DNA of 33,905 nt. Source: Myxococcota bacterium (GTDB taxonomy: Bacteria; Myxococcota_A; UBA9042; DTJE01). How positions within the stretch are numbered: the stretch's first letter is position 1; each line of letters starts with the position of its first letter. The notes under the pieces are model-generated. The model was not told the DNA's origin and did no database searches. It saw only the letters and a program-made list of their open reading frames with translations. The position numbers and the translations under genes were made by a program. Shown here piece after piece: positions 6,493-27,844 of the stretch. The DNA lies in assembly GCA_017994695.1 (NCBI GenBank), contig JAGOKF010000039.1:1-33905 (forward strand). The letters are read 5' to 3'.

Positions 6493-7260
6493 ATGAACGA
6501 GGACCGGCAGGCGGACGTGGAACCCATCCTGGAGGTCCGGGATCTCCGGGCGTCGGTGGGGGATCGGGCGATCCTGAAGGGCGTGGACCTGGCGGTCCGC
6601 CCGGGGGAGGTCCACGCCCTGATGGGGCGCAACGGCAGCGGCAAGAGCACGCTGTCCCACGTGCTGATGGGCCACCCGGCCTACCGGGTGGACGGCGGGG
6701 AGGTGCGGTTCCTGGGTCAAGACCTGCTGGCCATGGACGTCACCGAGCGGGCCCGGGCCGGCTTGTTCCTGGGCTTCCAGCACCCGGTGGCCGTGCCGGG
6801 CGTCACGGTGACCCACTTCCTGCGGAACGTGCTCCGGAGCCGGGGCCGGGACCTGCCGGCCCGGGAGTTCCGGGGGGTGCTTCGGAAGGCCTTCGACGAA
6901 CTGGGCATCGCCGACGAGTTCGCGGGGCGATCGCTGAACGACGGATTCTCGGGCGGCGAGCGGAAGCGCCTGGAGGTGCTCCAGTTGCGGCTGCTGCGCC
7001 CGGCCCTGGCCCTGATGGACGAAACGGACAGCGGGCTGGACATCGACGCCCTGAAGGTCGTCTCCGAGGGGATCAACGCGTCGATCCGCGAGGGGGTGTC
7101 GGTGGTCCTGGTGACCCACTACCAGCGGATCCTCCAGTACGTCCAGCCCCAGGTGGTGCACGTCTTCCTGGACGGCCGGGTGGCCCGGAGCGGCGGGCCG
7201 GACCTGGCCCGGGAACTGGAGGCCCGGGGGTATGACTGGATCGACGCGCCGCAGGCCTGA
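6493..7260 (+). CDS. sufC: Fe-S assembly ATPase SufC
   Basis: SufC is the ABC-type ATPase of the SufBC2D scaffold that builds Fe-S clusters in the cytoplasm. The 255-residue product shows Walker A GRNGSGKS at 45-52, the SufC-type Q-loop region ([11 protein letters not shown]), signature [10 protein letters not shown] from 152, Walker [15 protein letters not shown] from 172, and the H-loop histidine in THYQR (H209). The [10 protein letters not shown] string is typical of SufC rather than transport ATPases, and there is no membrane partner. The ATG at 6493 follows AGGGGGAG. An in-frame ATG at 6478, overlapping the regulator's stop, is an alternative start that would add five residues. Confidence 0.96.
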
Positions 7261-7288
7261 AGGGCTGGCGGCGGAAAGGAGGCGGGAC

Positions 7289-8698
7289 ATGGAAGCCACC
7301 GGCGCCGGAACGTTGGTCGGGGAGTACCGGTACGGGTTCCACGACGAGGAGCGCAGCGTCTTCCAGACCCGCCGGGGCCTGGACGAGGAGGTGGTGCGCC
7401 AGGTCAGCGCGATCAAGAACGAGCCGGACTGGATGCTGGAGTTCCGGCTCCGGGCCCTGGGGCTCTTCCAGGCCCGGCCCATGCCCCGCTGGGGCAACAC
7501 CGAGGTGCTGGACGCCATCGACTTCGACCGGATCATCTACTACGCCCGGGCGACCGAGGGCCAGGGGCGGACCTGGGAGGAGGTCCCGGAGGGGATCAAG
7601 CGGACCTTCGAGCGCCTGGGGATCCCCGAGGCCGAGCGGAAGTTCCTGGCCGGGGTCACGGCCCAGTACGACTCCGAGGCGGTGTACCACTCGATCCAGG
7701 CGGAACTGGAGAAGCAGGGGGTGATCTTCCTGGACATGGACTCGGGCCTGCGCCTGCACGGGGACCTGGTCCGCCGGCATTTCGGGACCGTGATCCCCCC
7801 GAACGACAACAAGTTCGCGGCCCTGAACTCGGCCGTGTGGTCCGGGGGGTCCTTCGTCTATGTCCCCCCGGGGGTCCACGTCCGGGTGCCGCTGCAGGCC
7901 TACTTCCGGATCAACACCCGGGACATGGGCCAGTTCGAGCGGACCCTGATCATCGCCGACGAGGGGTCCAGCGTGCACTACATCGAGGGGTGCACGGCGC
8001 CCGTGTGGTCGTCCGACAGCCTCCACTCCGCCGTGGTGGAGGTCATCGCCAAGAAGGGCGCCCGGATCCGCTACACGACGATCCAGAACTGGTCCCGGAA
8101 CGTCCTGAACCTGGTGACGAAGCGGGCCGTGGCCCACGAGGACGCCACGGTGGAATGGGTGGACGGGAACCTGGGGTCCCGCCTGACCATGAAGTACCCG
8201 GCGATCCACCTGGTGGGGCCGAGGGCCCACGGGGAGATCCTCTCCATCGCCTTTGCCGGGGCCGGGCAGCACCAGGACGCTGGCGCGAAGGTGATCCACG
8301 CCGCCCCGGACACCACGTCGTCCATCACCTCGAAGTCCATCAGCAAGGACGGCGGGCGGGCCTCCTACCGGGGGCTCGTGAAGGTCCATCCCGGGGCCCG
8401 GAACGCCCGGGTGAACGTCCGCTGCGACGCCCTGCTGCTGGACGAGCACTCCCGGTCCGACACCTGGCCGACGATGGAGATCGGCGAGGCGGGGGCCGCG
8501 GTGGGCCACGAGGCGACCGTGTCGAAGGTCAGCGAGGAGCAGTTGTACTACCTCCGGAGCCGGGGCCTGACCGAGGCCGAGGCGACGCTGATGATCGTGA
8601 ACGGCTTCATCGAGCCCTTCGTGAAGGAACTGCCGATGGAGTACGCGGTGGAACTGAACCGCCTGATCGCCCTGGAGATGGAGGGATCCGTCGGATGA
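7289..8698 (+). CDS. sufB: Fe-S cluster scaffold protein SufB
   Basis: SufB is the scaffold subunit on which the nascent cluster forms within SufBC2D. The 469-residue product is full length for the family. It carries the beta-helix core and the conserved C-terminal helical region ([17 protein letters not shown]). C379 (NVRCDALLL) matches the E. coli C405 sulfur acceptor, and E408 (GHEATVSKV) sits 29 residues later, exactly the C405-E434 separation. C235 (IEGCTAP) corresponds to the C254 site. The ATG at 7289 follows AAAGGAGG by six bases, the best ribosome site in the operon; an earlier in-frame start would overlap sufC and has no such site. The stop overlaps sufD as ATGA. Confidence 0.97.
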
Positions 8699-17899: not shown

Positions 17900-17972
17900 G
17901 CTGGCGTAGCTCAATCGGCAGAGCACCTGATTTGTAATCAGGCGGTTGTGGGTTCGATTCCCGTCGCCAGCT
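17900..17972 (+). tRNA. tRNA-Thr(UGU)
   Basis: The acceptor arms are GCTGGCG and CGCCAGC. The anticodon stem CCTGA/TCAGG holds the loop TTTGTAA, giving anticodon TGT (ACA codons). The T-loop TTCGATT is normal. The discriminator base is T and no CCA is encoded. It is first in a four-tRNA cluster read into tuf. Confidence 0.95.
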
Positions 17973-17999
17973 CTGCGCCGGTTGGGGGACTTTGGTGCT

Positions 18000-18082
18000 G
18001 GAGGGGTTCCCGAGCGGTCAAAGGGGTCAGACTGTAAATCTGCTGCCAGATGGCTTCGGAGGTTCGAATCCTCCCCCCTCCA
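18000..18082 (+). tRNA. tRNA-Tyr(GUA)
   Basis: The acceptor arms are GGAGGGG and CCCCTCC, and the loop CTGTAAA gives anticodon GTA. A long variable arm makes it a class II tRNA, as expected for bacterial tRNA-Tyr. Discriminator A; CCA is not encoded (CCG follows). Confidence 0.95.
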
Positions 18083-18136
18083 CCGGTGCCGTTCTTTGAA
18101 GTTTGGCAAGCCCCCTGATGGGGACGAGTCGGGTGG

Positions 18137-18209
18137 GCGGGAATAGCTCAGTTGGCAGAGCGCGAGCCTTCCAAGCTCGACGTCGCGGGTTCGAATCCCG
18201 TTTCCCGCT
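18137..18209 (+). tRNA. tRNA-Gly(UCC)
   Basis: The acceptor arms are GCGGGAA and TTCCCGC. The anticodon stem CGAGC/GCTCG with loop CTTCCAA gives anticodon TCC. The T-arm GCGGG-TTCGAAT-CCCGT is regular. No CCA is encoded. Confidence 0.95.
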
Positions 18210-18237
18210 CCTTCTGTTCGGGGAATGCCTGGACGAG

Positions 18238-18309
18238 GCCTTCGTAGCTCAGGGGTAGAGCACCTCCTTGGTAAGGAGGGGGTCGGCAGTTCGAATCTGC
18301 TCGAAGGCT
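18238..18309 (+). tRNA. tRNA-Thr(GGU)
   Basis: The acceptor arms are GCCTTCG and CGAAGGC. The anticodon stem CCTCC/GGAGG with loop TTGGTAA gives anticodon GGT (ACC/ACU codons). No CCA is encoded. It lies 90 bases upstream of tuf; the order Thr-Tyr-Gly-Thr-tuf is the same as E. coli thrU-tyrU-glyT-thrT-tufB. Confidence 0.95.
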
Positions 18310-18399
18310 CCAGGGGCGATGGTCCGGTCCTGGTCGGGTGGCCGGGATGTGGCAGTTGCGCTGGCAAGGGGAGTCGTTGAAAGTCAAGGAGGATCGGTC

Positions 18400-19910: not shown

Positions 19911-19986
19911 AGGGCAGTAGCTCTAACGGTAGAGCAGCGGTCTCCAAAACCGCGGGTTGGGGGTTCGAATCCCTCCTGCCCTGCCA
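19911..19986 (+). tRNA. tRNA-Trp(CCA)
   Basis: The acceptor arms are AGGGCAG and CTGCCCT, discriminator G, and the 3' CCA is encoded in the DNA. The anticodon stem GCGGT/ACCGC holds CTCCAAA, giving anticodon CCA. The encoded CCA distinguishes it from the four tRNAs upstream of tuf. Confidence 0.95.
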
Positions 19987-22360: not shown

Positions 22361-22888
22361 ATGAATCGGGAACAGAAGCAGGCAGCCGTCGAGGAGTTGA
22401 AGGGCATCCTGACCTCCTCGAGGGCCATGGTGCTGGTGTCCATGACCCGCCTGAACATGGAGACGACCACGGGGCTGCGGGCCACCCTTCGCAAGGAGGG
22501 GGGCCGGTTCCAGGTCATCAAGAACACCCTGTTCGGGCGGGCGGTGGACGGGACCCCGCTGGCCTTCCTGGGCGAGAAGCTGGCCGGTCCGCTGGCGGTG
22601 GCGTACACCGACGGCGACCCGGTGGGTCTCGCGAAGGCCCTCGTGGGCATCCTGAAGTCCGTCCAGGGACTTCAGTTCGTGGTCGGGGTGCTGGGCACCC
22701 GGTCGATGAACGAGGCCCAACTGAAGGCGTTGGCGACCCTCCCGTCGGCCGAGGTGCTGCGGGCGATGCTGCTCGGGACCTTCGGTGGCGTCCCGCGGAA
22801 GTTCCTGGGGCTGTTGCAGGCCCCGGCCCGGGACTTCCTGGGGGTGCTGAAGGCCCGGGAGCGGCAGTTGACGGAGCAGGCGGCGTGA
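22361..22888 (+). CDS. rplJ: Large ribosomal subunit protein L10 (uL10)
   Basis: The 175-residue L10 anchors the L7/L12 dimers to the ribosomal stalk base. The N-terminal rRNA-binding domain is recognisable from [20 protein letters not shown] and from [12 protein letters not shown], and the C-terminal helix that carries L12 dimers is present. It follows the leader described upstream and precedes rplL by 61 bp, the stalk operon order of most bacteria. Confidence 0.96.
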
Positions 22889-22949
22889 CCGGACGGCCGA
22901 TGTTGTGGCCGGAACGGGTCCGCCAGGGAACCACACAAAGGAGCGTGAG

Positions 22950-23348
22950 ATGTCGGAGATCACTCGGGACCAGGTGAAGGCGTATCTGAGCCAGTTGACG
23001 GTGTTGGAGCTGGCCGAACTGACGAAGGAACTGGAGGCGCTGTGGGGCGTCACCGCCGCGGCTCCGATGGCGGCGATGGCGATGCCGATGGCGGCGGCTC
23101 CCGCCGAGGCGGCGGCGCCGGTCGAGGAGAAGACCGAGTTCGACGTCATCCTCGTCGAGGTGGCGGCGGACAAGCGCGTGGCGGTGATCAAGGAGGTCCG
23201 GGGGATCGTCTCGGGCCTGGGCCTGAAGGAGGCCAAGGAGCTCGTCGAGAGCGCTCCGAAGGCCATCAAGGAGGCCGTCTCCAAGGCCGAGGCCGAGGAG
23301 ATCAAGAAGAAGCTCGAAGCCGCCGGCGCGAAGGTCGAGATCAAGTAG
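22950..23348 (+). CDS. rplL: Large ribosomal subunit protein L7/L12 (bL12)
   Basis: The 132-residue protein has the N-terminal dimerisation region (residues 5-34), an Ala/Met/Pro-rich hinge (about 36-58), and the conserved C-terminal domain ([21 protein letters not shown] to the final KVEIK). The ATG at 22950 follows AAAGGAG by six bases; an in-frame upstream ATG at 22905 has no such site and would add non-homologous residues. Confidence 0.97.
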
Positions 23349-23363
23349 GGCCGGTTCGCGGGG

Positions 23364-23395
23364 CCTCCCGAGGGCGCGCCTTGCGCCCCGGGAGG
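23364..23395 (+). terminator. Strong hairpin (attenuator or processing site) after rplL
   Basis: CCTCCCG (23364-23370) pairs with CGGGAGG (23389-23395), and GGGCGC (23372-23377) with GCGCCC (23383-23388). The only defects are a single bulged A and a 5-base loop. No T-run follows. In E. coli the same gap holds an attenuator and an RNase III site, so partial termination or processing between rplL and rpoB is the likely role. Confidence 0.55.
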
Positions 23396-23707
23396 ATCGC
23401 GGTCCGACACGCGAGTGCGCGGGGGTGCACATCCGGACCCGCTCCGCGATGCAGGCTCCCGGCTCGCGCCACGTGCGGGGGCATCCGCGGAAACGCGGCT
23501 GCCCGTTGCCTCCCCGACGGGGGCCCGGAAGCCACGCCCGTGGCTCCGGGTTGGGCGCGTAGGCGGGCGGTGCACTGCCGTTCCGCCGACGCCAGGGCAG
23601 AGGCCGGGGTCCGCTCGTAGGGATCCCGGCGTGGTTCCGGGGACGATGCCGTTGAAGGGCCTCGCTCGGAGACTCGTTCCAACCGTCTCACCAGGAGCAG
23701 GGACAGG
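23396..23707 (+). other. Gene-free, hairpin-rich rplL-rpoB spacer
   Basis: No credible gene is seen here. Further stems are present. One is ATCGC/GCGAT plus GGTCCG/CGGACC (23396-23450), with an asymmetric bulge. Another is a GAAA-tetraloop stem CCGCG/CGCGG (23485-23498) extended by GGGCA/TGCCC (23479-23504). A third is CCCGGA/TCCGGG plus GCCAC/GTGGC (23524-23550), with one bulged A. The rest up to rpoB has no clear motif, except a possible ribosome-binding sequence CAGGAGCAGGGACAGG before the ATG. The stems are consecutive and do not overlap, so they could form at the same time. Confidence 0.5.

Positions 23708-27844
<4,137 letters not shown>

Follow-up and report, generated by a model that had tools for sequence, protein, structure and literature searches.

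The 359-nt spacer between rplL and rpoB in the window, a stretch of 33,905 nucleotides from a Myxococcota bacterium (contig JAGOKF010000039.1), very probably encodes a conserved RNA fold. A 195-nt element (positions 23410-23604) is common to four genomes belonging to two genera, namely, the window genome (G000) and G001 in genus g1, and G005 and G011 in genus g5. From 5′ to 3′, it consists of hairpin A, a linker, the variable-length hairpin P3, and a four-way junction formed by P4 to P7 (Table 1). On balance, we favor the reading that this element is a lineage-specific structured leader RNA, carried on the rpoB strand and acting in cis on rpoBC expression. The presence of a conserved and compact RNA in the rplL-rpoB gap of a non-model organism makes the balance between polymerase and ribosomal proteins a testable question.

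Table 1. Features of the rplL-rpoB region, in positions of the window.
Feature	Positions	Strand	Basis and remarks
rplL (ribosomal protein L7/L12)	22950-23348	+	ORF; 5′ neighbor of the gap
P0, long irregular 5′ hairpin	23352-23406	+	Folds; in both g1 species with differing letters, absent in g5
Hairpin A (P1, P2a, P2b, P2c)	23410-23468	+	RNAalifold, controlled pair count; 23 predicted pairs
Linker	23469-23475	+	Alignments; CCACGTG, CTACGTT in genus g5
P3, variable hairpin	23479-23504	+	Sequences, fold; GAAA loop in the window, GAGA in G001
Four-way junction closed by P4 (TTGCCT/GGGCAG)	23506-23600	+	Folds of four sequences; g1 copies recovered with the g5 model
P5 hairpin of the junction	23512-23522	+	Folds, pair counts
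P6 hairpin of the junction	23523-23551	+	Pair counts; bulged A on the 5′ arm
P7 hairpin of the junction	23557-23592	+	Alignment, pair counts
Shine-Dalgarno-like AGGAG before rpoB	23693-23697	+	Read off the sequence
rpoB (RNA polymerase beta subunit)	23708-27844	+	ORF, ATG start; gene 3′ of the gap

The gap corresponds exactly to positions 23349-23707, has a G+C content of 75%, and is present as a single copy in its own genome according to DNA comparison. Of 137 related genomes, 116 have a match to rplL at E ≤ 1e-10, and 10 of the 13 genomes of the family match the start of rpoB. The best rpoB matches from named organisms show about 60% identity over about 790 residues, a level that does not fix the phylum. 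The corresponding gap of E. coli measures about 320 nt. An earlier note on this DNA had described a series of strong stems in the gap, and these are indeed present, including a stem of 13 pairs with one bulged A (23364-23395), the GAAA-capped P3, and P6 with its own bulged A. It had also named compensatory base changes as the way to recognize a genuine RNA element, and such changes were found in alignments of the four sequences. Beyond the stems listed at that time, P5, P6, and P7 proved to be enclosed by a closing helix, P4, forming the four-way junction.

Hairpin A was drawn by RNAalifold unaided, from a plain MAFFT alignment to which no structure had been supplied, and comprises 23 pairs. 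Four of these pairs were changed on both sides with pairing kept, against none in all six slid controls, and 96.7% of 92 cells were paired, compared to 29-45% when the partner was slid by one to three columns. Among 500 shuffled alignments, the paired percentage and the covariation score were each reached by nine, the number of doubly changed pairs by 51, and the number of pair types by 332. The internal loop of the hairpin (GCA/CAG) and its bulged C are found in all four genomes.

The junction was aligned with a covariance model of the g5 pair and by hand, because MAFFT misplaced P4 and P5 when given the whole element and was off by about one column when given the junction block. Folded alone, positions 23506-23600 and their counterparts adopted the identical layout in all four sequences, with a six-pair P4 closing around P5, P6, and P7; the centroid folds of the two g5 sequences left P5 open. 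The model alignment of the four sequences holds 37 pairs, in which 95.1% of 143 cells were paired and six pairs were changed on both sides, against 42-44% and zero to two, respectively, in slid controls; of 500 shuffles, one reached the paired percentage and nine reached the number of doubly changed pairs. The two g1 species differ by one compensatory change in P6, where a C-G pair of the window corresponds to T-A in G001. The letters CGGTGCACTGCCG at the tip of P7 are invariant in the four genomes, and the lower stem of this hairpin varies in letters yet stays paired. Additional evidence came from R1, a covariance model built from G005 and G011 alone, which found the g1 junctions, scoring 42.0 bits for that of the window and 43.8 bits for that of G001, while its next-best match reached 17.8 bits in 11 sources and 24.9 bits in 52 genomes of the class.

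Compensatory changes thus exceeded the slid controls in both hairpin A and the junction, with mixed results against shuffles for hairpin A and with four sequences available. In a manual alignment of the two domains, which covers 54 pairs in the four genomes and omits P0 and P3, 213 of 216 cells were paired; 30 pairs were invariant, 12 were changed on both sides, 10 were changed on one side, and two were only broken. This alignment was built with the structure in mind and leans toward it, as does the model alignment of the junction, and the lower stem of P7, the part aligned with the least certainty, contributes half of the 12 doubly changed pairs. The same count offers a hint as to the strand, since the 25 G-U cells against a single A-C cell favor the rpoB strand as the RNA strand, a support rather than a proof, given that the helices were derived from folding the plus strand, which is biased toward G-U over A-C and makes the argument weaker than 25 to 1.

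Sequence identity was distributed unevenly over the element. Comparing the window with G005 and G011, respectively, identity was 0.69 and 0.83 in hairpin A with its linker and 0.68 and 0.64 in the junction, against 0.48 and 0.55 at four-fold sites of rplL and the start of rpoB, 0.49 and 0.50 in the 3′ flank, and 0.53 and 0.55 in the 5′ flank. The P3 stretch gave 0.52 and 0.62. For the two g1 genomes, identity was 0.98 in hairpin A and 0.93 in both the junction and the P3 stretch; the values for comparison are 0.82 (four-fold sites), 0.83 (3′ flank), and 0.68 (5′ flank). For the g5 pair, hairpin A and the junction were both at 0.83 and four-fold sites at 0.60; the 3′ flank reached 0.74, indicating that this flank is also constrained in genus g5.

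Folding energy is a poorer guide. The whole gap folded at -210.9 kcal/mol (z of -2.3, with 1 of 100 shuffles as low), and a separate run with 60 shuffles for each sequence gave z-scores of -1.98 for G000, -3.16 for G001, -2.85 for G005, and -3.75 for G011. With the same number of shuffles, the conserved part alone scored -0.78, -1.66, -2.51, and -6.41, in the same order. The caution of the earlier note that high G+C by itself yields many stems was therefore well placed, as a gap z of about -2 and a conserved-part z of -0.8 in the window are barely beyond chance, and at such G+C folding energy alone is weak evidence. Nor does folding strength single out the window gap, since gaps devoid of the element span +0.45 (G004), -1.43 (G013), -2.61 (G007), -2.88 (G002), -4.21 (G009), and -5.97 (G003). 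The minimum-energy fold of the window gap differs from the conserved one; enforcing the latter gave -206.3 kcal/mol, i.e., 4.6 kcal/mol higher. In the ensemble, representative pairs of P0, P3, P6, and inner P7 had probabilities of at least 0.97, and those of P1, P2a, and P4 had 0.02, 0.25, and 0.27. These weak z-scores, the discrepancy between the minimum-energy and conserved folds, the small number of sequences, and the shuffle measures that hairpin A did not exceed would all suit an apparent structure produced by chance from high G+C and shared ancestry. We nonetheless hold this explanation to be highly improbable, as pairing and double changes surpass the slid controls, the g5 model transfers to g1, and the element changes more slowly than four-fold sites and, between genera, than its flanks.

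The distribution of the element was then considered among relatives. The gap was readable in ten of the 13 family genomes (G000, G001, G005, G011, G002, G003, G004, G007, G008, and G009), the start of rpoB not being found in G006, G010, and G012. The four gaps carrying the element measure 359 nt (G000), 360 nt (G001), 353 nt (G005), and 415 nt (G011). It is absent from the other six readable gaps, which measure 161-203 nt in five genomes and 222 nt in G008 (by eye), so rpoBC has no general need of it. Two further models, R2 for the junction and R3 for the hairpin, were built from the four sequences and match them by construction, making the transfer of R1 to g1 the only independent find. Searched under stricter filters in a phylum sample of 377 genomes, drawn evenly from a larger group, R2 recovered the four at E values of 7.6e-16 to 1.7e-11; its matches in G212 (E = 0.04) and G278 (E = 0.03) were taken as chance, by eye. 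Weak junction matches among the 52 class genomes occurred in G028 (E = 0.8) and G045 (E = 0.6). In the 13 family genomes, R3 gave the four at 6.3e-16 or better and ten others at 0.016 or worse. These ten weak matches, located in G000, G001, G005, G007, G008, G011, and G012, were rejected; the six inspected (the set excluding G011:C75, G008:C224, G012:C43, and G012:C85) look coding by eye and share no DNA similarity with one another (blastn, E ≤ 1e-5). With filters off, R2 and R3 reached at best 20.7 and 16.7 bits in 27 further loci, including the six family gaps, and these scores were also taken as chance. BLAST matches of the gap in G021, G084, and G131 were dismissed as chance given their frame context (two in long open frames, one between divergent frame starts) and their location on contigs other than that of rplL. 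Convincing matches are thus confined to the rplL-rpoB gap.

This confinement bears on whether the element could be a separate small RNA gene housed in the gap and acting in trans. Its compact, structured, and intergenic nature and its single copy in its own genome would fit such a gene, but convincing matches solely beside rpoB do not, and we find this proposal very unlikely. A scan of positions 22800-24000 returned no sigma-70-type promoter, which says little, as the scan is weak, with a chance expectation of 0.0, and addresses this promoter type alone. The same region returned no terminator-like site, with 0.6 expected in shuffles and hence little power.

Terminators are of particular relevance to the comparison with E. 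coli, in which the setting of polymerase against ribosomal proteins within one operon is still described as incompletely understood in a passage of PMC4670729. The E. coli rplL-rpoB gap contains an attenuator that, according to the same passage, decouples the expression of ribosomal proteins and polymerase subunits, and that is reported to be read through under rifampicin (PMC6181997, in part). The window gap resembles that of the E. coli rplKAJL-rpoBC operon in its place and, as far as the cited portions go, in lying where a gap decouples ribosomal protein and polymerase genes (PMC4670729, PMC2777011). It differs in features from the E. coli attenuator and RNase III gap, as no terminator-like site was found in it and its conserved fold has two domains, one of them a four-way junction. 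The earlier note had likened the gap to that of E. coli as a possible RNA element; the conserved RNA with compensatory changes bears this out in part, and a terminator-type attenuator is not supported, with zero sites found and 0.6 expected in shuffles. An E. coli-like attenuator would match the operon position and also a G005 hairpin that immediately follows rplL and precedes CTTTGAT, but the conserved-part stems are followed by no T run in the window sequence, and such a mechanism seems extremely improbable here. The G005 hairpin occupies the first 34 bases of its gap (locus L090) and is weakly terminator-like; the gap of G011, from the same genus, lacks it by eye.

Outside the two conserved domains, hairpins vary. 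P0 includes the 13-pair stem with the bulged A, which is not conserved, G001 having a two-base bulge on the opposite arm instead; in the 5′ flank of the element, the two g1 genomes share 41 of 60 aligned bases. Other hairpins sit in both g5 gaps, where P0 is absent. The stretch from linker to junction, which holds P3, measures 29 nt in G000 and G001, 51 nt in G005, and 129 nt in G011, and the GAAA loop is likewise not conserved, with GAGA in G001 and other hairpins in genus g5. A further strong hairpin is predicted after the junction at 23602-23629 and at the equivalent place in G001, with letters differing between the two species. In the sister genus g3 (G003 and G009; loci L094 and L095), the gap holds a different long hairpin with 41 predicted pairs, of which seven are changed on both sides between the two sequences. 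The family gap is therefore often structured, but with different structures, which suggests a quick turnover of such leaders.

Such hairpins raise the question of whether the element is a structure for processing and spacing, cleaved by a double-strand RNase and protecting the end of the rpoBC message, with neither ligand nor feedback. The E. coli rplL-rpoB gap is noted as an RNase III substrate in a passage of PMC2777011, P0 is a long irregular stem in g1 that, judging from its modeled fold, may serve as a double-strand processing site in this genus, and the g3 hairpin with its doubly changed pairs would suit the same role. However, a four-way junction, a P7 tip free of variation, and conservation of the internal loop would be superfluous in a processing stem, and genus g5 keeps the element without P0. 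We consequently regard processing and spacing as a rather unlikely full account of the element.

Under the favored reading of a cis-acting leader, the element would belong to a transcript that reads through from the ribosomal protein genes, and in genus g1 a double-strand RNase could cut P0 so that rplL and rpoBC end up on separate messages. A protein or ligand might then be recognized by the P7 tip, which is invariant, and by the internal loop of hairpin A, the likeliest partners by analogy with E. coli being RNA polymerase or a ribosomal protein complex. Autogenous control of rpoBC in E. coli is mentioned in part of PMC10931766. The outcome would be a polymerase output uncoupled from the greater demand for L7/L12, and the element probably helps set the amount of polymerase in the cell. 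A more specific version, which we see as quite unlikely, has the two-domain RNA acting as a lineage-born sensor of free polymerase; it would bind RNA polymerase itself or an assembly intermediate and exert feedback on rpoBC, with docking of the P7 tip and the hairpin A loop shaping the site. In three of four genomes, both of these sites contain the palindrome GUGCAC, the exception being hairpin A of G005, with GCGCAC. Mimicry of 23S rRNA was considered as a separate candidate and rejected, as the longest words shared with the rRNA of the same genome (10 and 12 bases) lie within the shuffle range (means of 9.3 and 9.7, maximum of 13).

Several leaders of rpoB or of the same operon invite comparison. 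Lacto-rpoB (RF01709), listed in a table of PMC2864571 as a cis-regulatory structured RNA of Lactobacillales named for rpoB and placed as a cis-regulatory element in a 5′UTR of E. faecium in a passage of PMC7724050, one of two other papers that mention it, resembles the present element in lying 5′ of rpoB. The two are set apart by the absence of a match to its Rfam model, either in the window at gathering score or in 23300-23760 at E ≤ 10, rather than by a comparison of architectures. In marine cyanobacteria, a conserved rpoBC operon leader (cluster 245) was found by comparison (PMC1242208); the likeness to our element is one of conserved structure at a corresponding place, by position, as the structure of the cluster is not given in the passage describing it. 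A prediction in the rpoB 5′-UTR is also mentioned for Shewanella in part of PMC2659441. The ribosomal protein L10 leader belongs to the same operon and is autoregulatory (PMC10931766, in part), but it acts on rplJ-rplL, and the gap has no Rfam match to it. The search of 23300-23760 against Rfam 15 at E ≤ 10 returned a single match, Rubella_3, on the opposite strand, with 14.2 bits where the gathering score is 35, and loci L082, L120, and L123 gave six weak matches, all under gathering score. We thus view the element as an rpoB leader RNA in kind and as no member of any described family tested by model, Lacto-rpoB being the only known rpoB leader so tested (Rfam 15). Among the literature matches listed, none described the element by title or abstract start, which is not proof of absence.

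Elsewhere in the window, ARAGORN called a tRNA-Thr at 7372-7461 where Rfam called none; this call is probably false because a long open reading frame (7232-8698) contains it. The ribosomal protein genes are preceded by tRNA genes for Thr, Tyr, Gly, and Thr (17900-18312) and by one for Trp (19911-19986), an order known from E. coli.
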